Of a DNA stretch of 64,000 nt, positions 4,860-60,517 are shown one piece after another. The first letter of the stretch is position 1; each line of letters starts with the position of its first letter. The stretch is taken from positions 1,736,001-1,800,000 of the forward strand of contig NZ_CP045119.1 of assembly GCF_011492945.1 (NCBI RefSeq), given 5' to 3'. A model generated the notes under the pieces. The model saw only the letters and a list, made by a program, of their open reading frames with translations, did no database searches and had not been told where the DNA came from. The translations under genes and the position numbers were made by a program. Source of the stretch: Rubrobacter tropicus (lineage in GTDB: Bacteria; Actinomycetota; Rubrobacteria; Rubrobacterales; Rubrobacteraceae).

Positions 4860-5888
4860 ATGGCACTGGTGACGATGCGTCAACTTCTCGACGAGGCCGC
4901 GAAGGGCGGTTACGGCGTCGGGGCCTTCAACGTCAACAATCTGGAGCAGGTACAGGCCATCATGGAGGCCGCCAGGGAGACCGAGTCGCCGGTCATAATC
5001 CAGGCTTCCAGGGGCGCGAGGAAGTACGCCAACGACCGCTTCCTGTACCACCTGATGGAGGCGGCGGCCGAGGTGTACCCGGAGATCTCGGTAGCGCTGC
5101 ACCAGGACCACGGCAACTCGCCCGAGACCTGCAAGAGCGCCATAGATCTCGGCTTCACGAGCGTCATGATGGACGGCTCGCTCATGGACGACGGTAAGAC
5201 GCCGGCGGACTTCGAGTACAACGTGCGCGTGACGCGCGAGGTCGTCGAGATGGCCCACGAGGTCGGGGTGACCGTCGAGGGTGAGCTCGGGACGCTCGGC
5301 GGCATCGAGGACGGCGTCGGTTCCGGCGAGGTGCACCTCACCGACCCCGACCAGGCCGTGGAGTTCGTCGAGAGGACGGGCGTCGACGCTCTGGCCGTAG
5401 CCATCGGGACGAGCCACGGGGCCTACAAGTTCACGAGCGAGCCGGACCGGGACGTGCTCGCCATGAACATCATCGAGGAGATCAACCAGAGGTTGCCCAC
5501 CACGCACCTGGTGATGCACGGCTCCTCCAGCGTGCCCAAGGAGCTTGTCGACACCATCAACCAGTACGGTGGGGAGATCCGGCCGACGTTCGGTGTCCCC
5601 GTGCGCGAGATCCAGGAAGGCATCAAGCACGGCGTCCGCAAGGTGAACGTCGACACCGATCTCCGCCTCGCCGCGACGGGTGCCATCCGCAAGGCCTTCG
5701 CCGAGGACCCGTCCGAGTTCGACCCCCGCTACTACCTCAAGCCCGCCCGCGAGGCGATGAAAGCGGTGGTCAAGGCCCGCATGGAGGCCTTCGGCCAGGC
5801 CGGCCACGCGAGGGACTACGATCCCATCTCCCTGCCCGACATGGCAGTCCGCTACAAGGAACAGGGACACCAGTTGACGACCGCCTAG
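4860..5888 (+). CDS. fba: class II fructose-1,6-bisphosphate aldolase
   Basis: 342 aa. It cleaves fructose 1,6-bisphosphate to dihydroxyacetone phosphate and glyceraldehyde 3-phosphate in glycolysis and the reverse in gluconeogenesis. Diagnostic stretches are [12 protein letters not shown] at the start, zinc-site [26 protein letters not shown] and [10 protein letters not shown], and the phosphate-binding region near KVNVDTDLR. The length and GTSHGAY motif fit the zinc-dependent subtype also used in Calvin-cycle bacteria. GAGAGGAG is placed well ahead of the ATG. The gene is monocistronic between two terminator-like hairpins. Confidence 0.95.
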
Positions 5889-5896
5889 CGGCGGTC
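5879..5896 (+). terminator. hairpin enclosing the fba stop codon
   Basis: GACCGCC (5879-5885) and GGCGGTC (5890-5896) form a perfect 7-bp stem. The loop TAGC contains the fba stop codon. The tail (TTGGCTCTT) is only weakly T-rich, so it may terminate transcription or protect the 3' end. Confidence 0.55.
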
Positions 5897-5905
5897 TTGG
5901 CTCTT

Positions 5906-5933
5906 AGCTTTCAGCGGTCAGCCATCAGCTCTT
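5906..5933 (+). repeat. heptad repeat array
   Basis: AGCTTTC, AGCGGTC, AGCCATC, AGCTCTT in exact 7-nt steps between the convergent fba and the unknown gene on the other strand. No inverted partner is seen nearby. Confidence 0.65.
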
Positions 5934-5955
5934 GGTGGTTGGCCGCTTCTCTGCG

Positions 5956-6912
5956 CTATGGGGTTGGTGAACGGTCGGCGCGCAGGTGGAGGAGGTATCT
6001 GCAGGGTGTTTTGGGGAGGTGCAGTGCCGTAAGCAACCCCTCCCACGGGCGGTTTTCGCCGTCGACGAACGTCCAGGTACTCCACGCCTGCGGGCCGTCG
6101 AGGCCTTCTTCGGAGCGTGACCAACCCGCGTCCTCCAACTGGGTGGCGTAGTGGGCGGTGAGGGAGGGGAGGTCCAGGTCGGACTCCAGGGCGGTGAAAG
6201 AGTACGCGCCGTCGTGCTCCTGGCTGCTTCCGCCGTATTCCCCGCCAGAACTTCGGGCGTCGAAGGGAGGGGCTAGGAGGCCCGTTTGGTCGTCCTCATC
6301 GAAGCTGCGGGACCGCGGTGGTGGGGTGAGTAGGGGCATCACGAACAGGGCCTCCGGGTCGTTGCGCCTTCGACGTTCGGAGGAGCGCCGGCCGGTGATC
6401 AACCTCAGGCGCACGTCCGTGGGGGCGTTGGACCGCTCCTCGGCGCTTATGATGAGCAACTGTTGTCGGGCATCCCTGAAGACCGTGGAGAGCCCCGGCA
6501 CGTCGACCGCCGCCCACCGGGAAGCCCGATTCAGCACACGTCTCAGGGAGATCAGGACACCGCGCGGGCCTCTTGCGAAGCCGCCGTGACCCGTGATTCT
6601 GTTGTCTTCCTCCCAGCCGTCGCCGGACAACTGGCCGCGGAACACTTCGCGTACCCGTGAGGCGGACATGTCCGCGTCAAGCACCACCTCGGTCGCCCGC
6701 CGGCCCCGCCGCGGCGCAAAGTCGGCGCTGCCGACGAGCGTGAAGCCATCCGGTATCCGCACGTCGAACTCGGTGTCGTCGGGCAGGCCTCCGGAAAAGA
6801 GCCCGGGCTCCTCGTCCGAATCCGCGTACGGGTAGTGCGAACGGAGGAGCCTGACGGCGAGTTTCAGCGGCACGGTGCCGTTCGCCGGTGGTTGCGGGCT
6901 TCGGCCTCTCAA
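5956..6912 (-). CDS. protein of unknown function
   Basis: About 318 aa from a tentative TTG at 6912; the open frame extends upstream into the LOG gene, but no start codon with a good ribosome site lies between. No family recognised. Visible features are an Arg/Pro-rich middle, repeated short beta-rich segments with Asp/Gly turns, and two similar stretches (VFRGQLSGDGWEEDN and ATQLEDAGWSRSEEG) that may be two copies of one small domain in which a difference from a threshold is scored. No signal peptide or membrane helix. Last gene of the pepA operon. Confidence 0.6.
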   Translation of the reverse strand: MRGRSPQPPANGTVPLKLAVRLLRSHYPYADSDEEPGLFSGGLPDDTEFDVRIPDGFTLVGSADFAPRRGRRATEVVLDADMSASRVREVFRGQLSGDGWEEDNRITGHGGFARGPRGVLISLRRVLNRASRWAAVDVPGLSTVFRDARQQLLIISAEERSNAPTDVRLRLITGRRSSERRRRNDPEALFVMPLLTPPPRSRSFDEDDQTGLLAPPFDARSSGGEYGGSSQEHDGAYSFTALESDLDLPSLTAHYATQLEDAGWSRSEEGLDGPQAWSTWTFVDGENRPWEGLLTALHLPKTPCRYLLHLRADRSPTP

Positions 6913-49504: not shown

Positions 49505-50551
49505 CTAGCTTTTCGGGAAAACGACCGCCCTGCCCGCGACGGCCACCGCCACGCGCTCGCCCGGTCTGAAACCGGGTCCGCCGCCCAGGCGGGAGCAGAG
49601 GACCGGTCCGGAGTCGAGGCGCAGCTTTATTAGCTGGTCGTGGCCGTAGAACTCCCGGGCGAGGACTGTCGCCCTGGTCTCCGTGCCGTCGGGAGCTTCC
49701 CCGTTCAGGCGGCGCAGGGTGAGCGCTTCGGGGCGGAGCATCGCCTCGACGGTGCCGGTGCACTCTCCGCAGGCCGGCACGTCGTCGCCGAGCACGCAGC
49801 TCAGGCGGCCGTTCTCGTGGGTGCCCGGGATAAAGTTGGCCTCTCCCACGAACTCGGCGACCTCGCGGCTGGCGGGCTCGTGGTAAAGGACCTCCGGGGC
49901 CGCCTTCTGGGCGATGGTGCCGTGGAGCATCACGGCCACCTCGTCGGCGAGGCTCAGGGCCTCTTCCTGGTCGTGGGTGACGAAGATCGCGGTCGCGCCC
50001 GCGTCCGTCAGTATGTCGCGCATCTCGGCCCGCACTCGCGTCCGGAGGGCGGCGTCGAGGTTGGAGAAGGGCTCGTCGAGCAGGACGACCTCGGGGTTCG
50101 GCGCCAGAGCCCTCGCGAGCGCCACCCGCTGCTGCTGGCCGCCCGAGAGCTCGTGAGGCATCCTGGACCCGAAGCCGTCGAGGTGGGTGAGAGATAGGAC
50201 CTCTTCGACGCGGCCGTTGCGCCTCTTGCCGCCGGGGAGGCCGTAGGCCACGTTCTGGGCCACGGTCAGGTGGGGGAAGAGGGCGTAGTCCTGGAAGACC
50301 ATGCCTACCCGCCGCTTCTCGGGCGGAACCCGCAGGTTCGGGCCCGCGACGGTCCGGCCGCCGACCTCGACCGTGCCCGTGTCGGGGGTCTCGAAGCCCG
50401 CGATCAGGCGCAGCGTCGTCGTCTTGCCGCACCCGGAGGGGCCGAGGAGGGCCAGAACCTCGCCGCGCTCGACCTCGAAGTCGACGCCGCGCACGGCGGC
50501 GACGGGCCCGTAGGAGCGGCTCACGCCCGTGAGGCGGACGGCGGCGCTCAC
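49505..50551 (-). CDS. iron(III) ABC transporter ATP-binding protein (FbpC-like)
   Basis: 348 aa, GTG start overlapping the permease stop (GTGA). Walker A is GPSGCGKTTT, signature LSGGQQQRVA, Walker B VVLLDEPFSNLD, then the switch His in FVTHDQEEAL. A C-terminal TOBE-like regulatory domain follows (RPEALTLRRLNGE, GERVAVAVAGRA). Sequence type and context (periplasmic-type binding lipoprotein, large permease, Fur box) indicate ferric-ion import. Confidence 0.92.
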   Translation of the reverse strand: MSAAVRLTGVSRSYGPVAAVRGVDFEVERGEVLALLGPSGCGKTTTLRLIAGFETPDTGTVEVGGRTVAGPNLRVPPEKRRVGMVFQDYALFPHLTVAQNVAYGLPGGKRRNGRVEEVLSLTHLDGFGSRMPHELSGGQQQRVALARALAPNPEVVLLDEPFSNLDAALRTRVRAEMRDILTDAGATAIFVTHDQEEALSLADEVAVMLHGTIAQKAAPEVLYHEPASREVAEFVGEANFIPGTHENGRLSCVLGDDVPACGECTGTVEAMLRPEALTLRRLNGEAPDGTETRATVLAREFYGHDQLIKLRLDSGPVLCSRLGGGPGFRPGERVAVAVAGRAVVFPKS

Positions 50552-52150
50552 TTCGCCCGCTCCCGGATGACGAGCAGGTAGAGCGGGACCGCCGAGATCC
50601 CGATAAGTAGCAAGGCGGGAGCCGCAGCCCTGGCGAAGAACGCGTCTCCCGTCGCGCTCCAGATCCTGGTCGCCAACGTCTCGAACCCCGTGGGGCCGAG
50701 CAACAACGTTGCGGGTAATTCCTTCATCGTCGTCAAGAATACCAGGGCCGCGCCCGCCACGACGCCAGAACCTGCGAGCGGGGCCGTGATCGTCGCCGCG
50801 ACCCGCACCGGCCCGCGCCCGAGCCCGCGCGCCGCCTCCTCGACGCTGGGCTTTACCTGAAGGAGGGCCGAGCGGCTTGCGCCCACGGCCTGCGGCAGAA
50901 AGTGGACCGCGTAGGCGAAGACCAGGAGCCCGAGGGTCTGGTACGCCCACGGCGCGTAGTTGGCCCCGAAGAAGACCAGCGAGAGGGCGAGCACGATGCC
51001 CGGCAGCGCGTAGCCCAGGTACGTAGTCTTCTCCACGAGGCCCGAGATCCTGCCCCGGAACCTGACGGACAGGATCGCCACCGGCAGCGCCGCGAGCGCC
51101 GTGACCGCCGCGGCGAGACCGGAGGCGTAGACCGAGCTCCAGGCCGCGTTCCAGAGCGGCCGCAGCGGCTCTCCCTCGGCCAGACCCCTGACGAGCCAGA
51201 AGGCGAGGACGCCGACGGGGCGGCGAGCGCTAGCAGGACCACCCCTCCGCAGAACAGCAGCGCCGGCCACCGCCAGCGCCCGAGCGGCACCGTGGGGCCG
51301 GACGCGAGGCGGCGTTGCCGTGGTAGCGGGCCCGCCCCCTGGTGGCCCCATCGACGAGAAGTACGGCCACCGTCAGCGCGACCAGCATCAGGGCCAGGAT
51401 CGCGGCCGGCGTCCTGTCGAAAGCGGAGCGATACTGGATGTAGATCTCGTTCGAAAAACTCTCGTACTGCAGCAACGAAACGACCCCGAAGTCGCTGAGG
51501 GCGTAGAGCGCCACGAGCAACGCCCCGGCCACGATGCCGGGCCTGAGCTGGGGCAGCGTTACGCGCAAAAACGTCTCCCAGGCGCCGCTCCCGAGGCTCC
51601 TCGCGGCCTCCTCCATGGCCGGGTCCATGCCCCGCAACGCGCCCCTGACGGTCAGGAAGACGTACGGGTATGAGAAGAGGGTGAGGGCGAGGGCGGCGCC
51701 TGGGAAGCCGTAGATCTCCGGCAGACGCTCCACCCCGAGCGGCTCCAGCCAGCCCTGCAGCATCCCGCGGGGCCCGAGCACGCTTACCAGAACGAAACCC
51801 CCGACGTAGGACGGAATGACGAGCGGTAGCGCCGCGAGCACGGCCCACGTCCGCCGTCCCGGAAGGTCCGTGCGCGTCGTCAGCCACGCCAGCGGCAACG
51901 AGAGGGCGACGGAGGCGGCGGTGACCACGGCGGCGAGCAGCGCGCTGCGCCCGAGAACCGCCAGGGTGTCGCCGTCGAGAACGACCTCGGCGACGGGCGC
52001 CCACCCGCCTTCCAACGAGCGGACGGCGAGGTAGACGAGCGGCAGGGCCATCGCCGTCACGACGAGCCCGGCGAGTATACCGAGCAGGACCGGCGGCCGG
52101 CGCGGTTTCGACCCGCGCCCCTGCGCTCCGACCGCCGCGGGCGTCGTCAC
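50548..52150 (-). pseudogene. iron(III) ABC transporter permease (FbpB-like), frameshifted in the middle
   Basis: GTG start at 52150. A ~530-aa duplicated permease: N half with LPLAWLTTRTDLPGRRTWAV and the EAA loop MEEAARSLGSGAWETFLRV, C half with a second EAA loop VEEAARGLGRGPVRVAATIT. The halves lie in different frames. Adding a C to the run near 51290 and another near 51215 gives RPAPTVPLGRWRWPALLF and LAAPVGVLAFWLVRG, joining them. Both are C4 runs, so the gene is probably intact in the organism. Confidence 0.85.
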
Positions 52151-52151
52151 C

Positions 52152-53267
52152 CTAGAGCGCCCCCGTCTCCTGCAAGAGCTCGAGCGTGCCGCCGAGGTCG
52201 TCGAGGTTGCTCAGGTCCACCTCGGGGCCCTGAACCTCGGAGAGCGGCGGGAGCTCGTCGTTGATCTCCACGCCTTCGGTGAGCGGGTACTCGTAGGTCT
52301 CGTCGGCGAAGTACTGCTGGGCCTCGTCCGAGAGCGCGAACTCAAGGAACTCCCGCCCGGCTTCCGGGTTCGCTGCCGTATCCAGGACGCCCGCCCCGGC
52401 GGCGAGCACGAGGGCGCCGGGGTCCCCGCCTCCGAGGTAGTAGTTGGCGGCGGGCAGGTCGTCGCCCCGCTCTTCCTTGACCTGGAAGAGGTAGTAGTGG
52501 TTGACGAAGGCCACCTGCACCTCGCCCGAGGCGACGCCCTCGACGGCGCTCAGGTTGTCGGGGTAGACGAAGGGGTCGTTAGCCTGCACGCCTTCCAGCC
52601 ACTCCCGGGCGCGGTCTTCACCTTCGAGGACCCGGAGCGCAGTCACGAAGGCCTGGAACGAGCCGTTGGTGGGCGCCCAGCCGATCTTGCCCTCCCATTT
52701 GGGGTCCGTGAAGTCGAAAATGGAGTCTGGCAGATCCCCCTCCGCAAGCTCCTCCGTGTTGTACGCCACGACCCGCGCCCGCCCGGATGTCCCCACCCAG
52801 TCCCCGTCGTCGGCCTTGAACCTCGACGGGACCTTGCCGAGTATGTCATCCGGAAGTCTGGTCAGGCGGCCCTCGTCGTCGAGCGCGCCAAGCGCGCCCG
52901 GGTCCTGGGCGAAGAAGAGGTCGGCCGGGCTGTTCTCGCCCTCTTCCAGGATAGTCGCCGCGAGCTCTGCCGTGTCCCCGTAACGGACCTGCACGTCTAT
53001 GCCGCTCCGCTCCTCGAACTGCTCGAAGATGGGGCCGACGAGCTCCTCGCTTCTGCCGGAATAGACCACCAGAGAGCCCTCGCCGGGCTTGAGCTCTTCC
53101 TGCGCCGTCGTCTCGGAGCCCGTTGTCTCGGACCCGGTGGTTTCTCCCGAACCGCTTTCGCCGCCGCCACCCTGGCCCCCTTGCGGCGGCTGGCCGCAGC
53201 CGGTGGAGATCAGGACCACAAGCGCCAGCACCGCCAGCGCGAGAACAGAGTTCGCGCGTGAGACCAA
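52152..53267 (-). CDS. iron(III) ABC transporter substrate-binding lipoprotein
   Basis: 371 aa from TTG 53267 with AGAGGA upstream. A lipoprotein signal with lipobox LISTGCGQ is followed by a Gly/Ser/Thr/Glu linker (QGGQGGGGESGSGETTGSE) and a family 1 iron-binding fold: LVVYSGRSEELVGPIFEQFE, VQVRYGDTAELAATILEEG, PADLFFAQDPGALGALDDEG and the later YYLGGGDPGALVLAAG. It captures ferric ion outside the membrane for the FbpB/FbpC pair. Fur-like box at 53320-53342. Confidence 0.92.
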   Translation of the reverse strand: MVSRANSVLALAVLALVVLISTGCGQPPQGGQGGGGESGSGETTGSETTGSETTAQEELKPGEGSLVVYSGRSEELVGPIFEQFEERSGIDVQVRYGDTAELAATILEEGENSPADLFFAQDPGALGALDDEGRLTRLPDDILGKVPSRFKADDGDWVGTSGRARVVAYNTEELAEGDLPDSIFDFTDPKWEGKIGWAPTNGSFQAFVTALRVLEGEDRAREWLEGVQANDPFVYPDNLSAVEGVASGEVQVAFVNHYYLFQVKEERGDDLPAANYYLGGGDPGALVLAAGAGVLDTAANPEAGREFLEFALSDEAQQYFADETYEYPLTEGVEINDELPPLSEVQGPEVDLSNLDDLGGTLELLQETGAL

Positions 53268-53319: not shown

Positions 53320-53342
53320 TAATGACAATCGTTTGCAATAAC
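53320..53342 (-). promoter_or_regulatory. Fur-like operator upstream of the ferric ABC operon
   Basis: TAATGACAATCGTTTGCAAT and three further bases (AAC); AATGA and TCGTT are an imperfect inverted pair. It is 21 of 23 identical to the box before efeO at 58954-58976. It lies 53 bases before the start at 53267. Confidence 0.7.
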
Positions 53343-53422
53343 GTGGTGCTGAGGGTAATCTACGGCGCTGTGGCGCGTCAAGTACCAGGCGGGTGGTTTG
53401 TGAGCTGGATCAAGGCTGTGGC

Positions 53423-54367
53423 ATGAGCCGGGTGCTGGTAACCGGTGCTGCCGGCTTTATCGGGTCGCACCTGGTCGACCGCCTGCTCGCCGAAGGCCGC
53501 GAGGTCATAGGCCTCGACGCCTTTACCGGCTACTACTCCCGCCGTACCAAAGAACGGAATCTCGAGTCGGCGCTGCGGAGCGGCAGGTTCCGGTTGGTGG
53601 AGGGCGACCTACTGGACTTTGACCTGGACGGTATTTTGGACGGCGTGGGACAAGTCGCGCACCTGGCCGCGGAGCCGGGGGTGCGACGGAGCTGGGGCCG
53701 GAACTTCCCCCGCTACGTCGCCCGCAACGTGGTTGCCACCGAGCGCCTGCTCGAAGCGGTAGGCGAGGGGACGAAGCTCGTCTACGCCTCCTCCTCCTCC
53801 GTCTACGGCTCGGACCCCGGTCATCCGGTTGACGAGGGGCATGGGCGTTTTCCGGCCTCGCCTTACGCGCTCTCCAAGCTCGCCGCGGAGGAGCTCGTCG
53901 GGTTGTACGGGCGGGAGCGCGGGGTCCAGGGTACCGTGCTCAGGTACTTCACCGTCTACGGCCCGCGCCAGCGACCCGAGATGGCGCTCTCGCGCTTCCT
54001 GTTTTCGGCGTTGCGGGGCAGGCCGGTCGACGTGTTCGGCGACGGGGGCCAGCTGCGGGACATGACCTTCGTCTCCGACGCGGTCGAGGCGACGGTGGCG
54101 GCGCTCGGGGCGCCGGTCGGGGTGTACAACGTCGGGGGCGGGACGCGGGCGTCGGTGGACGACATGATCCAGACCGTCAGAAAAGTGACGGGTGCCTCGT
54201 TCGAGGTCCGCTACGGACCCGAGGCGGAGGGCGACGTCCGGTCAACCTGGGCCGACTCCGGGCGCGCGGAGCGCGTGCTCGGCTACAAGCCCCGGGTGGG
54301 CCTCGAAGAAGGTGTGGCGGCCCAGGCTGAGTGGGCCGCCCGCGCGCTCGTCGCCGCGCCGGCCTAG
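53423..54367 (+). CDS. NAD-dependent epimerase/dehydratase (nucleotide-sugar)
   Basis: 314 aa, ATG 53423. Extended SDR: VLVTGAAGFIGSHLVDRLLA, catalytic YALSK in FPASPYALSKLAAEE, Ser in YASSSSVYG and nucleotide-sugar features VLRYFTVYGPRQRPEMALSR, VGGGTRASVDDMI. Similar to UDP-glucose/galacturonate 4-epimerases; the sugar is not determined. Followed after 7 bases by a membrane glycosyltransferase-like gene, so it probably supplies envelope glycan precursors. Confidence 0.9.
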   Translation: MSRVLVTGAAGFIGSHLVDRLLAEGREVIGLDAFTGYYSRRTKERNLESALRSGRFRLVEGDLLDFDLDGILDGVGQVAHLAAEPGVRRSWGRNFPRYVARNVVATERLLEAVGEGTKLVYASSSSVYGSDPGHPVDEGHGRFPASPYALSKLAAEELVGLYGRERGVQGTVLRYFTVYGPRQRPEMALSRFLFSALRGRPVDVFGDGGQLRDMTFVSDAVEATVAALGAPVGVYNVGGGTRASVDDMIQTVRKVTGASFEVRYGPEAEGDVRSTWADSGRAERVLGYKPRVGLEEGVAAQAEWAARALVAAPA

Positions 54368-54374
54368 AAGCGCC

Positions 54375-56396
54375 GTGCTGCAGGGGCTCCTGATCCTGGC
54401 CGCCCTCTACCTCCCGGGCCACTTCCTCGCCCCTCTCCTCTCCCGCAAAGACGACGGCCTCACGGAGCTCCTCTTGCTCCGCCTCTGCTCCTCCCTGGCC
54501 CTCGCCGCCCCCCTCCTGACGCTCCTGGCCCTCGCCGGGTGGTTCACCGTGCCCGTGATCGCCGGAAGCCTCGCGCTCCTCGCCGCGGGAGCCTTCTTGC
54601 TCGGCCGCGGCCGGGGCGGAACCGGACGGCCCACCGCCTGGGACTTCGGGGCGCTCGCGCTCGTGGCCGGGAGCTTCGGGCTCTATGGCAGGCCGGCGGA
54701 GTACGTACTAAACAGCAGAGACCCCGGCGTGTACTTCCTGTTCGCGGACAAGTTGGCGCGGACCGGGGCGTTATTGCACAGGGACCCGCTAGTCGGGGCC
54801 GTGGCCTCCTTTCACCCTTTCCTCGAAGGTAGAAAGTACCCCGGGTTCTACGTGTACGGGCAGGACCTTATCGTGCCGCAGTTCTTCCCCGGACCGTTCG
54901 CATTCCTCGGTCTGGGCGACCTTATAGGCGGCACCTGGGGAAACCTCCTGGTAGTCCCCGTCATGGGCGCCCTCTCGGTCGGCGTCGCGTACGCCCTCGG
55001 CAGCGAGCTCTTCGGCCGGTGGGCCGGGCTTCTCGGGGCTGCGCTTCTTGCAGTGAGCTACGCCCAGGTATGGTGGGCCCGGCACCCTTCGAGCGAGGTG
55101 ATGACCGCGCTCTTGGTCCTCGCCGGGCTTTGGTTCGCGACGCGGTTCGCGCGCGGCGCCGGCCCCCTGGCGGGCGTCTTCGCGGGCCTGTTGCTCGGGG
55201 GCGTCATGCTCATCCGGGTCGACGCCTTCCTCGCGGCGGCCGCGATCCCCCTGCTCTTCGTCTTCGACCTCGTCACCCGCCGGCCCGCTCGCCGCTGGCT
55301 CTACCCTGGGGTGCCGCTCGTCGTCTTCGCCGGCCTCACGCTCCTCTATCTGAACACCCTCGGCTCGCGTTACCTGTACGTGATCTACACGGAGCACGGC
55401 CTGAAAGAAGCTCTCGCACTCGTCCCGTACGCCGCACCTTTCGTCCTGATCCTGGCCTGTGCCGTGTTGTACGTCAGGCGCCGGTGGGGGATGGAGATCG
55501 GGGCGTACCTGGAGTCCAGGGGCGGGCGCTTCGCCGTCTTCGGCGCCGCCTGCGTGGCCGTCCTCGCGCTCTGGGCCTACTTCGTCCTGCCCGTGCCGTG
55601 GGAGACCTTGCCGGACGGGTCGCGGGACTTCGACGCGTACAGGACCCAGATCCTGCTGCGCATCGTCTGGTTCGTGACGCCGCCCGTCGCGGCCCTCGGC
55701 CTCGCAGGCTTCGTGCTGGCCGCCCGCCGGTTGGACGCCGGACGAACCCTGCTCTTCGGGGCGTTTCTCGCTTTCGGGTCCCTCTACGCGGTGATCCCGA
55801 ACGTAGCACCAGATCTACCCTGGGCCACCCGGCGGTTCGTGCCCGCCGCTTTCCCGATACTTGCCCTCCTCGCCGCCCACGCGACGGCCGAGATCGGGGC
55901 CGGTATCTCCGAGCTCCTGGGCCGCCGGGCCGGCGCTGTCGTCTCCGCGGCCCTGGCCGCCTTGGCGCTCTCGTGGACCGTCTACACCACGATCCCCATC
56001 CTGATCTTCCAGGAGCTGGACGGGGCGGTCTCCTCTTTCGACAAGATCGAGAAAAAGATACCTGCGGCCGAGGTGGTCTACATGGAGATGCCAGAAGGCT
56101 TCGACGTAACGGCCTCGACCTTCGAGTACCTCTACGGTCGCCCGGTCTTGCCCTACGATCACAATCGCTTCGTCCGGGAGGTGGACGAGCTTCAGGAGGC
56201 CGGCCTCCTCGACGACGCCGTCTACGTCACCACCGACGGCGGCCCGGCGCCGCTGCTCGCCGACTGGGACTTCAGGGAGGTGGCGAAGGCCAGGCTCGAC
56301 CTCCCCCGGCTCGCCGCCGTCGAGAAAGAGCTGCCGACGGTGAAGGAGTCGCTCCGCCTGGACTATCGCGTCTTTCGCGTGGAGAAGGAACGATGA
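54375..56396 (+). CDS. GT39/ArnT-like multi-pass membrane glycosyltransferase
   Basis: 673 aa, GTG start. About 12-13 membrane helices in the first 560 residues, with an acidic loop EYVLNSRDPGVYFLFADKLA after helix 3, the kind of outer loop carrying catalytic acidic residues in GT-C transferases. A C-terminal ~110-residue soluble domain follows (AAEVVYMEMPEGFDVTAS, DEVREVD-like). Family assignment rests on architecture. Likely transfers sugars from a lipid carrier on the outer side. Confidence 0.7.
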   Translation: MLQGLLILAALYLPGHFLAPLLSRKDDGLTELLLLRLCSSLALAAPLLTLLALAGWFTVPVIAGSLALLAAGAFLLGRGRGGTGRPTAWDFGALALVAGSFGLYGRPAEYVLNSRDPGVYFLFADKLARTGALLHRDPLVGAVASFHPFLEGRKYPGFYVYGQDLIVPQFFPGPFAFLGLGDLIGGTWGNLLVVPVMGALSVGVAYALGSELFGRWAGLLGAALLAVSYAQVWWARHPSSEVMTALLVLAGLWFATRFARGAGPLAGVFAGLLLGGVMLIRVDAFLAAAAIPLLFVFDLVTRRPARRWLYPGVPLVVFAGLTLLYLNTLGSRYLYVIYTEHGLKEALALVPYAAPFVLILACAVLYVRRRWGMEIGAYLESRGGRFAVFGAACVAVLALWAYFVLPVPWETLPDGSRDFDAYRTQILLRIVWFVTPPVAALGLAGFVLAARRLDAGRTLLFGAFLAFGSLYAVIPNVAPDLPWATRRFVPAAFPILALLAAHATAEIGAGISELLGRRAGAVVSAALAALALSWTVYTTIPILIFQELDGAVSSFDKIEKKIPAAEVVYMEMPEGFDVTASTFEYLYGRPVLPYDHNRFVREVDELQEAGLLDDAVYVTTDGGPAPLLADWDFREVAKARLDLPRLAAVEKELPTVKESLRLDYRVFRVEKER

Positions 56397-56448
56397 GGCC
56401 GCACGCCCGGATCTTGCGCGAGTCTATTGGTCAGGCTCATGTTGTCAC

Positions 56449-56628
56449 AGCGGTTTGCGGGATCATCGAGCCCGTTGGGGGTGGGCCTACGGGTTCTTAG
56501 GCTTTGAGGTTCCGAGGGGTGGAGGGTCGGGGCCCGCCCGCGGTCTCGTGGCGCACCCCTAAAAATCTGAGTGCCTAAAAACCTGAAAACCTCACCAACG
56601 ATGAGGGTCGGTCTCTCCGCAAACCGCT
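56449..56628. repeat. 180-nt long-hairpin element (copy 1)
   Basis: AGCGGTTTGCGG (56449-56460) is perfectly inverted at 56617-56628. Nested co-centred pairs follow: CATCG/CGATG (56464/56599), GTTGG/CCAAC (56474/56595), TTAGGC/GCCTAA (56497/56573) and AGGGGTG/CACCCCT (56515/56554). Lies between the convergent GT39-like and efeB genes. A related copy is at 62123-62289. No protein, so a MITE-like repeat, ncRNA or bidirectional terminator. Confidence 0.75.
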
Positions 56629-56629
56629 C

Positions 56630-57910
56630 TCAGATCCTATCGAAGAGACGTTCGCCGACGTAGCCGCCTTCGCGGGCCCCTGGCGGGCAGGCTAAGAGGG
56701 CGCTGGCGGTGTGTCGGATGTACTCGTTGAGCCGGTCGTTGGCGGCGAGGCGTTGCTGAAGGGGTACGAACTGCTTGTGGGGGTCTCGCTGGAAGGAGAT
56801 GAAGAAGAGGCCCGCGTCGAGCTGGCCGCGTTCGGCGTCGAAGCCGTCGGTGAAAGAGTAGCCGCGGCGTAGGATCTTCTCCTCGTCGCTGTGGCGGGCG
56901 AGCCGAACGTGGGCATCCTCGGCGATCAGCGGCTCCCCGTTTTCGCTCTTTGCTTCCAGGTCTACCGGATCGAACTCGTCTTCTTTCCCGATCGGAGCGC
57001 CGCTGTACTTGTGGCGGCCGATGCTGGCTTCCTGTTCGCCCAAGGAGACGCGGTCCCAAACCTCTATGAGCATCCTGATCCTGCGCGCCACCAGGTAAGT
57101 CCCGCCCGCCATCCACGACGGCCCCTCGCCCTCCGGCACCCAGACGTGCCGGTCCATGAGATCTGCGTCCTCGGCCTTTATGTTGTTGGTTCCGTCCTTC
57201 ACGCCCATGAGGTTGCGCGGCGTCGCCTGGGTCCTGCTGGTGCTGGCGGTGCGCCCGAAGCCAAGCTGGCTCCACCGCACTACGGCCAGCCCGCGCGAGA
57301 TCCTGACGAGGTTTCGCACGGCGTGGAACGCCACCTGCGGGTCGTCCGCGCAGGCCTGTACGCACAGGTCCCCGTCCGAACGCGCCTCGTCGAGCACATC
57401 ACCCGTCAAAGGCGGCAGCGGCGCTAGCGCGGCCGGCCTCGCCGCTCCGAGCCCGAAGCGGTCCTCGTCCTCCTCGCCGAAGAACGAAGGGCCGAAACCG
57501 AAAGTCAGGGTGAGCCTGGCGGGGGAGAGGTCGAAGGCTTCCCCGGTGTCTTCAGGTGGCAGGAACTCGCTGTGGTTTTCCTCGCCCGCCGGACGGCCCC
57601 GCGTCATGCGCTCCGCGGCCTCCGTCCACGCCCGGAGGAGATCGCGCACCTCCAAAACCTCTTCCGTGACCAGGTCCAACGCCGCGAAGTGCAGGTGCTC
57701 CTGCTGCGCCGTCGCGATGCCGGCCTGGTGGACGTCGCGGAACGCCACGGTCTGAAGGCCGGCCAGGGCCGCCGCCTCGTCCCCGGAATCCCGCGCGTCG
57801 GCGGCTCCACTGAGGGCGGCGTAGCCTCCGGCCCCGAGGGCCAGTCCGGCGCCCGCGGCGCCGGTTACCCGGAACAGGTCCCTGCGGCTGAGCCTCCCGC
57901 CGTCGCCCAC
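56630..57910 (-). CDS. efeB: Dyp-type heme peroxidase EfeB, Tat-exported
   Basis: 426 aa. Twin-arginine signal SRRDLFRVTGAAGAGLALG at the N-terminus. The distal Asp of Dyp peroxidases is in GVKDGTNNI; later HVRLARHSDEEKILRRGYSF holds the proximal His region, and RHKYSGAPIG is typical of the EfeB/YcdB group. In EfeUOB systems EfeB supports ferrous/heme iron acquisition at the outer side of the membrane. The stop lies directly beside the 180-nt hairpin. Second gene of the Fur-boxed operon. Confidence 0.93.
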   Translation of the reverse strand: MGDGGRLSRRDLFRVTGAAGAGLALGAGGYAALSGAADARDSGDEAAALAGLQTVAFRDVHQAGIATAQQEHLHFAALDLVTEEVLEVRDLLRAWTEAAERMTRGRPAGEENHSEFLPPEDTGEAFDLSPARLTLTFGFGPSFFGEEDEDRFGLGAARPAALAPLPPLTGDVLDEARSDGDLCVQACADDPQVAFHAVRNLVRISRGLAVVRWSQLGFGRTASTSRTQATPRNLMGVKDGTNNIKAEDADLMDRHVWVPEGEGPSWMAGGTYLVARRIRMLIEVWDRVSLGEQEASIGRHKYSGAPIGKEDEFDPVDLEAKSENGEPLIAEDAHVRLARHSDEEKILRRGYSFTDGFDAERGQLDAGLFFISFQRDPHKQFVPLQQRLAANDRLNEYIRHTASALLACPPGAREGGYVGERLFDRI

Positions 57911-57925
57911 GACGCCCGTGCCCTT

Positions 57926-58936
57926 CTAGCCTTCGAGTACCTTGCCGACCCGCGAGAGGGGTTCGGCAAGGGCGTCGACCTTCTGGCTGAGGGCGCGGCG
58001 GTCCGCTTCGTTCAGGGTTTCGTAGGAGACCCAGCCGTCGCCCCGCCGGTACTGATCAAGCTCCTCATAGACGCCATCGAAGCCCTCCGTGACCTCGTTG
58101 GCGAGCGTCATGTCCTCGCCGGCCACCTCCGGCTTGAGCTCCTCGAAGGCGACCTCGGAACCCTCCACGTTGGCGTTTATGTCGTAGAGGTCGGTGTGCG
58201 AGTAGCGGTCCTCCTCGCCCGTGATCTTGCCGGCCGACACCTCGTTTAGCAACTCCACCGAGCCCGTGACGAGGTCCGCAGGCTCCAGCTCTAGCTCCTC
58301 GACCTCCTCGTGCAGGTTCTCGACGTCCTCCATGAGCCGGCGGGCGTATTCCTCCTGCCCTTCCGTGGTGTTCTCCTCCCACAGGGCCTTCTCGATCCTG
58401 TGGAACCCGCGCCACTCCTCGTCGGGCACGTCACCTTCCCTGGCGTCGATGTTCGGGTCGTAGTCCCCGAGGGAGGCCGCTACGGGTTCGATCCTCTCCC
58501 ACGGCTCCCGCGCCGGCCCGAAGAGCCGCTTCGCCTCTTCCACGTCGCCGGAGATCACCGCGTCGGTGAACTCCCCGGTCCGGTCCTCCAGCAAATGCAC
58601 CTGCTCCTCGACGTAAACCTCGTACTCGTCGGCCGCCGCGGCCAACTCGGCCGTGCCCCCAACCTCCACTGCCGCCGTCGTCTCTTCAGACGTCGTCTCT
58701 TCAGACGTCGTCTCTTCAGACGTCGTTTCCTCGGAGGTGGTTTCCTCAGAGGTCGTCTCCCCGGAGGTCGTCTCCTCGGCCGTGGTCTCTTCCGTCTTCT
58801 CCCCGCCTCCCCCGTCGTTGCCGCCGTTCGACGGCGGGGGCTGGCCGCAGCCCGCGACCAACAGCGCGAACAGCGCGCCCAGCAGCAAAAACGCCGGTCT
58901 CCCCGGTCCGTGGCCCAGCCGATCTGTCTCGCGCAA
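57926..58936 (-). CDS. efeO: EfeO/EfeM-type iron-binding lipoprotein (M75 imelysin)
   Basis: 336 aa from TTG 58936 with GGAGGG five bases upstream; a longer start would run into the Fur-like box. A lipobox (LLVAGCGQ) follows one signal helix, then a Thr/Glu linker of eight 15-bp repeats (EETTS), then the imelysin domain with the metal motif GFHRIEKALW and FTDAVISGDVEEAKRL. EfeO passes iron to EfeU; no efeU gene is in the window. The linker resembles that of the ferric-binding lipoprotein at 52152. Confidence 0.92.
   Translation of the reverse strand: MRETDRLGHGPGRPAFLLLGALFALLVAGCGQPPPSNGGNDGGGGEKTEETTAEETTSGETTSEETTSEETTSEETTSEETTSEETTAAVEVGGTAELAAAADEYEVYVEEQVHLLEDRTGEFTDAVISGDVEEAKRLFGPAREPWERIEPVAASLGDYDPNIDAREGDVPDEEWRGFHRIEKALWEENTTEGQEEYARRLMEDVENLHEEVEELELEPADLVTGSVELLNEVSAGKITGEEDRYSHTDLYDINANVEGSEVAFEELKPEVAGEDMTLANEVTEGFDGVYEELDQYRRGDGWVSYETLNEADRRALSQKVDALAEPLSRVGKVLEG
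58677..58796 (-). repeat. 15-bp tandem repeats in efeO
   Basis: Eight 15-bp units; the first three (58677-58721) are identical (GTCGTCTCTTCAGAC on the plus strand), the rest diverge. They encode the low-complexity Thr/Glu/Ser lipoprotein tether and could change length by slippage without breaking the frame. Confidence 0.85.
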
Positions 58937-58953
58937 AGAGTCCCTCCGACTAC

Positions 58954-58976
58954 TAATGAAAATCATTTGCAATAAC
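58954..58976 (-). promoter_or_regulatory. Fur-like operator upstream of efeO
   Basis: TAATGAAAATCATTTGCAAT plus AAC. AATGA and TCATT form a perfect inverted pair around AAA. It lies 17 bases before the efeO start, overlapping the likely promoter. 21 of 23 bases match the box at 53320-53342. Confidence 0.75.
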
Positions 58977-59074
58977 CCGGAGGGAAAGTTAATGTACGGC
59001 GGCGGGTCAGGTCAAGCGTGGAGCGAGGTTTATGTGAGGCAGATCAAATCGCGGTCGGGGCGGGGAGGGGCGTC

Positions 59075-60517
59075 GTGAAGGCCGCGTCGGGGTTCGAGAT
59101 CCTGGCGGCCAGGATGTGGAACGTCCTGAACGAGGGGAAGTCCTTCCATCCCGTGTTCGTGGCCGGGATCTTCGTCTTGCTGCACCTCGGCGAGGTCTTC
59201 TCGGCGGGCTTCTGGGGGAGGGCGCTGCCCGCGATCCTGCTCGCGGCGCCCCTCGTCGTACTCTTTGTCCGCTACGACTTTCCGCTGAAGCTGCGGTGGG
59301 CGCTCTGGACGTTCCTGGCGGCGTTCTTACTGGTCTTCAGGTTCGTCGACTGGGGCGCGCTCGCGCTGGCGCTCGGGCTGTACGTCTTCTTTACGGTCTT
59401 CTTCTGGGGGACCTTCTACTATCACTTAAGAACCGGGGCGCCGAAAACCAACTTTCTGAGGTTCTGGAAGCTCGTGCTCGAGAACCCCGACTCGACGAGC
59501 GGGAATTTTCTGGAGCAGGTCCCGAAAGCCCTGATCGTGTTGTTCGCGCTCGAGTATCTCGTCGCGGCGCCGGTTACGGTCGGAAGGGCGCTCGCGGTGC
59601 TCGCTTTCGCGGCGGCGGTGGGGGTGGCGGCCTGGTGGGTGCATCGCAGGTTCTTCGACTGGAAGCCCGCGTATCCGGCGGGGCGGACTCGGACGGTCAA
59701 TCGTGGGGAGGCGTTGGCCAAGCGGGTCATCGTGGTAGTCATCGACGGGTGCAGGCTGGACAGGTTTCACGAGGCCGAGAAACCCTACCTGGAGAAGATG
59801 ATGGCGGGGGGAACGGTCTACGAGTCGGTAGAGACCGTTTACCCGGCGAGGACCGTGGTCTGCTTCTCGTCCATGCTAACGGGGGCCGCGCCCGAGAAGC
59901 ACGGAATAACGTCGAATCTGGTCCTCAAGCTCGGCCTGAAGGTGGAGAGCATCTTCGACGTGCTTCGGAGATCGGGGAAAAAGGGGCGGCTCGTTGGGAT
60001 AGCCCACCTCATAGACGCGTTCGGGGACGACGTGGCGAGCGTTACCAGCGTGGCCCACAACGACAAGATCGACGTCAACCTCATCGCGGCGGGGCGGCGC
60101 GAGCTGGAGGAGCACGACCCCGACCTCCTCGTTCTGCAACTGCTCGCCGTGGACCAGAACGGTCACGTGCGCGGCACCCGCTACCCCGAGTACGTCGAGC
60201 GGATCGAGATCACGGACAACCTCATAGAAGGCTTTATGAGGTGGTGCGAGGAGGAGGGCTACCTCGAAGACGCAGCCGTCGTACTCATGGCCGACCACGG
60301 CCAGGGCATAGGCATAGGCGCCCACGGGCACCTCTCGGAGGGAGAGAGGTTCGTGCCGTTCGCGATGTGGGGCAGCGGCGTCAGGGCCGGGCAGACCGTA
60401 ACGGAGCCCGCCTCCGTCATGGACCTCGCGCCGACAATCTGCTACCTGCTGGGGGTCGAGCCGCCTGAGGGTTCGACCGGGCGGGTGCTCGAAGACGCGC
60501 TGGAGGACCGGGGGTGA
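59075..60517 (+). CDS. membrane-anchored alkaline phosphatase superfamily protein
   Basis: 480 aa, GTG with GGGGAGGGG upstream. Six hydrophobic helices in residues 20-190, then a type I phosphodiesterase/nucleotide pyrophosphatase domain: VIVVVIDGCRLDRFHEAEKP, nucleophile region YPARTVVCFSSMLTGAAPEK with the Thr/Ser position, and metal site VVLMADHGQGIGIGAHGHLS. Might hydrolyse phosphodiesters of envelope polymers. Its stop overlaps the next gene (GTGA). Codes strongly GC-rich. Confidence 0.82.
   Translation: MKAASGFEILAARMWNVLNEGKSFHPVFVAGIFVLLHLGEVFSAGFWGRALPAILLAAPLVVLFVRYDFPLKLRWALWTFLAAFLLVFRFVDWGALALALGLYVFFTVFFWGTFYYHLRTGAPKTNFLRFWKLVLENPDSTSGNFLEQVPKALIVLFALEYLVAAPVTVGRALAVLAFAAAVGVAAWWVHRRFFDWKPAYPAGRTRTVNRGEALAKRVIVVVIDGCRLDRFHEAEKPYLEKMMAGGTVYESVETVYPARTVVCFSSMLTGAAPEKHGITSNLVLKLGLKVESIFDVLRRSGKKGRLVGIAHLIDAFGDDVASVTSVAHNDKIDVNLIAAGRRELEEHDPDLLVLQLLAVDQNGHVRGTRYPEYVERIEITDNLIEGFMRWCEEEGYLEDAAVVLMADHGQGIGIGAHGHLSEGERFVPFAMWGSGVRAGQTVTEPASVMDLAPTICYLLGVEPPEGSTGRVLEDALEDRG

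Follow-up and report, generated by a model that had tools for sequence, protein, structure and literature searches.

Fur boxes are described either as a 19-bp sequence (GATAATGATAATCATTATC) or as a 7-1-7 pattern (TGATAATNATTATCA), and in most actinobacteria iron control is usually exerted by regulators of the IdeR/DtxR type. Two described uptake systems are closest to the locus studied here, the ferric-iron ABC importer FbpABC/HitABC and the EfeUOB/FepABC/YwbLMN system. In S. aureus, FepA and FepB are the orthologues of EfeO and EfeB and FepC is the EfeU-type permease (PMC3577903); FepA, like EfeM of P. syringae (PMC9174327), is an EfeO-type protein that has an M75 domain only.

We analyzed a 64-kb window of the Rubrobacter tropicus genome (G000, 4.58 Mb in 2 contigs), which corresponds to G000:C1:1736001-1800000 and is numbered here from its first nucleotide. 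The initial annotation of this window had reported two nearly identical Fur-like 23-mers on the minus strand, one preceding a ferric ABC operon and the other preceding efeO-efeB. Both were found at the reported positions with 21/23 identity (in the direction of the genes, GTTATTGCAAAYGATTKTCATTA), the AATGA-AAA-TCATT inverted pair described for the efeO box is indeed perfect, and the distances to the TTG start codons are as given, 17 nt for efeO (58936) and 53 nt for fbpA (53267). The boxes and the promoter elements predicted for them are as follows.

53320..53342, minus strand: Fur-type box of the fbp operon, GTTATTGCAAACGATTGTCATTA on the minus strand and TAATGACAATCGTTTGCAATAAC on the forward strand
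53352..53357, minus strand: predicted -10 element TACCCT of the fbp promoter, 18-bp spacer, in the conserved TANNNT columns -19 to -14
53376..53381, minus strand: predicted -35 element TTGACG of the fbp promoter, its TTGAC conserved across family sites
58954..58976, minus strand: Fur-type box of the efeO-efeB operon, GTTATTGCAAATGATTTTCATTA on the minus strand and TAATGAAAATCATTTGCAATAAC on the forward strand
58986..58991, minus strand: predicted -10 element TAACTT of the efeO promoter, 18-bp spacer, from the family alignment on the box core
59010..59015, minus strand: predicted -35 element TTGACC of the efeO promoter, from the same alignment

The Rubrobacter boxes share with described Fur boxes an AT-rich composition, overlapping dyads and a TAATGANAATCATT core, and like them lie at iron-uptake promoters. 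They differ in conserving an asymmetry, with TTGCAAA on the promoter side and TNTCATT on the gene side, and in lying immediately past the point where transcription is predicted to begin. Counted by hand against the E. coli 19-bp consensus (GATAATGATAATCATTATC), the efeO box agrees at 14/19 positions and the fbpA box at 13/19, which plausibly fits a Fur box.

Shuffling the window 100 times with dinucleotide composition preserved produced no match to the 23-mer, and when the whole genome was scanned with up to three mismatches the two boxes were the sole matches (reversed control, 0). Scanning the genome with a looser 7-1-7 pattern (TGMNAAYSRTTNKCA) gave three perfect places, comprising both boxes and a site at C1:596648. 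This third site, TATTGACAATCATTATCAATA, is a near-perfect palindrome between genes for a siderophore-type Peripla_BP_2 binding protein and a FecCD permease, in a cluster that also holds two further binding proteins, a FhuF-like protein and a ferritin. Allowing one mismatch yielded 12 further places versus 8 in the control, which we took as chance. The expectation that a genome scan would turn up the pattern before other iron genes, along with a Fur-family regulator, was thus borne out, with the additional match being of the looser form.

Across Rubrobacteraceae, the core TTGCWAAYGATTNTCATT, with at most one mismatch, matched 43 times in 28 of the 39 genomes, while the reversed-pattern control matched 0 times. 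The neighbors of these boxes include fbpA, efeO, efeU, a longer FTR1 gene, a P19-family lipoprotein gene followed by fbpABC, and genes for FecCD, a haem/siderophore binding protein, flavodoxin, a VIT-family protein and ferritin. All but one of the 43 sites adjoin iron genes or relics of the fbp/efe locus, the sole box with no recognizable iron neighbor being at G053:C167, and so the concentration before non-metal genes that would have spoken against an iron regulon was not seen. The dyad occurs at iron promoters above chance and recurs beside other iron genes of this genome and of relatives; the genome also encodes a Fur protein.

Several of the family sites have features of their own. Two boxes appear to have lost their operon: G015 retains efeUOB and has lost fbpABC, leaving the fbp box behind (L143, about 6512), and G044 retains fbpA and has lost the efe genes, leaving the efe box behind (L207, about 3877). 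Three genera have a Fur-type box between a ferritin gene and a gene whose small protein product (about 135-165 residues) has a VLASYSSRxRV-like motif (L051:814-1233, L217:10464-10865 and L212:3273-3770); the two copies of this protein that were scanned, from L051 and L217, had no Pfam match. In G052 and G053 (L215 and L216) the gene for a P19-family (PF10634) lipoprotein lies between the box and fbpA, and its product may be another accessory iron-binding partner for FbpABC. Genes of the epimerase, PMT_2-type glycosyltransferase-like and phosphodiesterase families flank the iron operons in the window (53393-56396 and 59018-60517) and do so in many relatives as well.

Aligning the family sites on the box core brought out a promoter at a nearly fixed distance from the operator. 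An exact TTGAC was present 40-44 nt upstream of the core in 29 of 40 distinct sites (24 of these at 42/43), compared to a mean of 0.6 and a maximum of 3 in shuffled upstream sequence, and TANNNT occupied positions -19 to -14. The resulting TTGAC-N18-TANNNT is predicted to be a sigma70-like promoter with an 18-bp spacer, and in both the efeO and the fbp promoters the distance from the -10 element to the 23-mer is 9 nt. Transcription is predicted to start ~7 nt before the box core, such that the operator would span from ~+4 to +25. A box just downstream of the predicted start, at a near-fixed distance from the promoter, fits steric repression.

To which regulator the boxes answer can be judged from the proteins that the genome encodes, which include four of the Fur family (A–D). 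Protein A (C1:1841431-1841781) gives the highest score of the four with a Bacillus-type Fur model, is the closest to PDB Fur structures and to NCBIfam Fur, and keeps the Fur-like stretch CGSVIEFNEE; it lies above the Pfam FUR cut-off and below the cut-offs of the NCBIfam Fur models themselves. By position and score, orthologues of A are found in all family genomes except three, which are fragmented assemblies. Protein B is nearer PerR, C adjoins a znuABC-like operon and has FurB/Zur as its best PDB matches, and D is catalase-linked, its gene following one that resembles a manganese catalase gene. With four paralogues encoded, and with the operators of Fur-family proteins looking alike, a Zur-like, PerR-like or catalase-linked paralogue might bind the boxes instead, in response to zinc, manganese or peroxide. 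We regard this as improbable, because the boxes of the family have iron genes and not zinc or peroxide genes as neighbors, because the Zur candidate stands beside znuABC, before which lies a different, even-centered inverted repeat (TGATAACCGGGTATCA), and because upstream of the catalase gene the repeat is of another kind, TTAGA/TCTAA. The TGATAACCGGGTATCA repeat was absent from the relatives' stretches compared, which may not reach znuA. No palindrome with a one-base center was found in G000 upstream of the fur genes, including that of A itself, or of znuABC. Its absence before the gene of A counts against the Fur reading, as do the NCBIfam scores of A below their cut-offs.

The regulators expected in an actinobacterial family were considered as well. 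The genome has three DtxR-family loci, and a regulator of the IdeR/DtxR type could in principle control both operons, with the box being incidental. However, two of the three loci adjoin what look from their sequence like MntH-type transporters, and an IdeR-type (TTAGG-type) pattern was rarer in the genome than its reversed control (28 versus 50 matches), with no match having fewer than three mismatches and none of the listed matches lying in the fbp or efeO promoters. Without a TTAGG-type palindrome at the iron promoters, control of this type is scarcely credible. One DtxR-family gene adjoining an MntH-like gene appears to be in two frames (G000:C1:3870062-3870269; L045, about 5817-6400).

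We conclude that both 23-mers are very probably operators of an iron-sensing Fur repressor, belonging to a small regulon conserved across Rubrobacteraceae. The initial proposal of one regulator for both operons is well supported by comparative evidence, namely the conserved box, the promoter geometry, the iron neighbors and the Fur-like protein. Protein A is the best candidate for this regulator, and we infer that it binds the boxes with iron as its signal. Iron-loaded Fur at each operator, just past the predicted start, would then shut off fbpABC and efeOB transcription, and both operons would be derepressed when iron runs short.

The genes behind the two boxes form operons at 53267-49505 (fbp) and 58936-56630 (efeO-efeB), both on the minus strand.

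49505..50554, minus strand: fbpC, ABC ATPase with a TOBE domain, from profile matches; start approximate
50548..51351, minus strand: 3′ part of fbpB, second permease half, in a different frame, from comparison with relatives
51230..52150, minus strand: 5′ part of fbpB, first permease half, aligning to residues 5-293 of a relative's single 539-aa FbpB
52152..53267, minus strand: fbpA, lipoprotein for ferric-iron binding, dityrosine stretch VNHYYL, TTG start, from best PDB matches
56630..57910, minus strand: efeB, DyP-type peroxidase/deferrochelatase with a twin-arginine-like leader (SRRDLFR), from TIGR01412
57926..58936, minus strand: efeO, M75-only (EfeM-type) lipoprotein with a TTG start and a GGAGG Shine-Dalgarno sequence, from the EfeO profile

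The gene names given originally hold. FbpA finds its best PDB matches among ferric-binding proteins and retains the YY pair, and genes for binding protein, permease and ATPase stand together in one operon, as in FbpABC/HitABC, with an FbpC ATPase and, in relatives, a two-domain FbpB. EfeO scores 312.7 bits with the NCBIfam EfeO model (cut-off 270) and consists of a Thr/Glu-rich stretch followed by the M75 domain alone, and EfeB scores 508.7 bits with TIGR01412 (cut-off 428). Two features set the fbp locus apart from FbpABC/HitABC: the operon or locus link with EfeO/EfeB or with a P19-family lipoprotein, and the split of fbpB in the assembly. In relatives fbpB is a single frame of about 535-550 residues, and in the window it has two 1-bp deletions compared to them, near 51293 and 51220. 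These are separated by ~73 bp, fall in the linker and in the first helix of the second half, and split the permease between its halves. No frame break was found in the remaining genes compared across the locus, which leaves room for a real mutation. An error of the assembly is possible as well, given that the DtxR-family gene noted above also appears split.

As in EfeUOB/FepABC/YwbLMN, an M75-only EfeO and a DyP deferrochelatase EfeB share one operon behind a Fur-type box, but the FTR1-type permease EfeU is missing: a profile search of the whole G000 genome found no FTR1 (PF03239) or EfeU permease, with 11–13 other family genomes being positive. EfeO and EfeB thus do not make up a complete EfeUOB system and are probably not a separate importer of that kind. 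Nine family genomes have EfeO without the short EfeU (G000, G001, G003, G004 and G005, which are of the same genus, together with G047, G048, G049 and G020, the EfeO of G020 being a divergent M75 protein), and conversely, three genus-mates (G002, G006 and G008) have EfeU without EfeO proper. FbpA was present in 9/9 of the EfeO-positive, EfeU-negative genomes (counting that of G001, a contig-end fragment) versus 2/6 of those with both EfeO and EfeU (Fisher p = 0.011, kinship ignored), an association drawn from related genomes, some of them fragmented. Among named genomes outside Rubrobacteraceae, each EfeO locus with full flanks has an EfeU/FTR1 match nearby; the only full-flank EfeO loci without one were in two Rubrobacteraceae MAGs, both with fbpA. 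The two gene sets are also joined directly in some relatives, as a single operon in G016 (box-efeU-efeO-efeB-fbpA-fbpB-fbpC), as a single operon without efeU in G047 (box-fbpA-fbpB-fbpC-efeO-efeB), and in the order efeO-like-fbpABC in G020.

The view that two distinct iron uptake systems lie in this region is therefore doubtful: because EfeU is absent genome-wide and EfeOB and FbpABC share one operon in some relatives, the products of both operons may belong to a single pathway. The simplest reading of these gene arrangements is that EfeOB may serve FbpBC. More broadly, and with somewhat less than even confidence, we propose that EfeO and EfeB of Rubrobacteraceae have been re-wired to deliver iron to FbpABC, making one pathway from two operons under one type of Fur operator. 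The secreted EfeO and EfeB would probably hand iron to FbpABC, or else act without EfeU, a step much less certain than the Fur part of the mechanism.

A serious rival is that EfeO and EfeB work without any partner permease, for example in EfeU-independent extraction of haem iron or in oxidative protection, their co-regulation with FbpABC reflecting no more than iron status. S. aureus FepA and FepB expressed in E. coli gave haem-iron use without FepC (PMC3577903), a precedent that makes this a real possibility, if somewhat short of an even one; yet in the family EfeO without EfeU was in every case accompanied by FbpA, in at least two genera within one operon. It is also conceivable that EfeOB is a decaying remnant left after loss of efeU, given that this loss is complete and that G015 and G044 have relict boxes without operons. 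We think this unlikely, because the efeO and efeB frames are open, with 74–88% identity in genus-mates and with conserved motifs and box, and because five genomes of the genus share the arrangement of EfeOB without EfeU. A literature search for EfeOB without EfeU found nothing direct.

Among the two parts of this picture, the Fur part is of an ordinary kind, albeit in a little-studied family of actinobacteria, in which IdeR/DtxR regulation is the usual expectation and Fur control seems to be undescribed, a literature search for a Fur operator in Rubrobacter or Rubrobacteraceae having found nothing direct. It provides a testable iron regulon, with an operator and a candidate regulator, for a deep-branching actinobacterial family. 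The EfeOB pair without its EfeU channel is the part with more promise. The role of EfeO/EfeM is still called unclear (PMC9174327), and the natural separation of EfeOB from EfeU in this genus, with EfeOB alone in five genomes and EfeU alone in three, lets the roles of EfeO and EfeB be asked.
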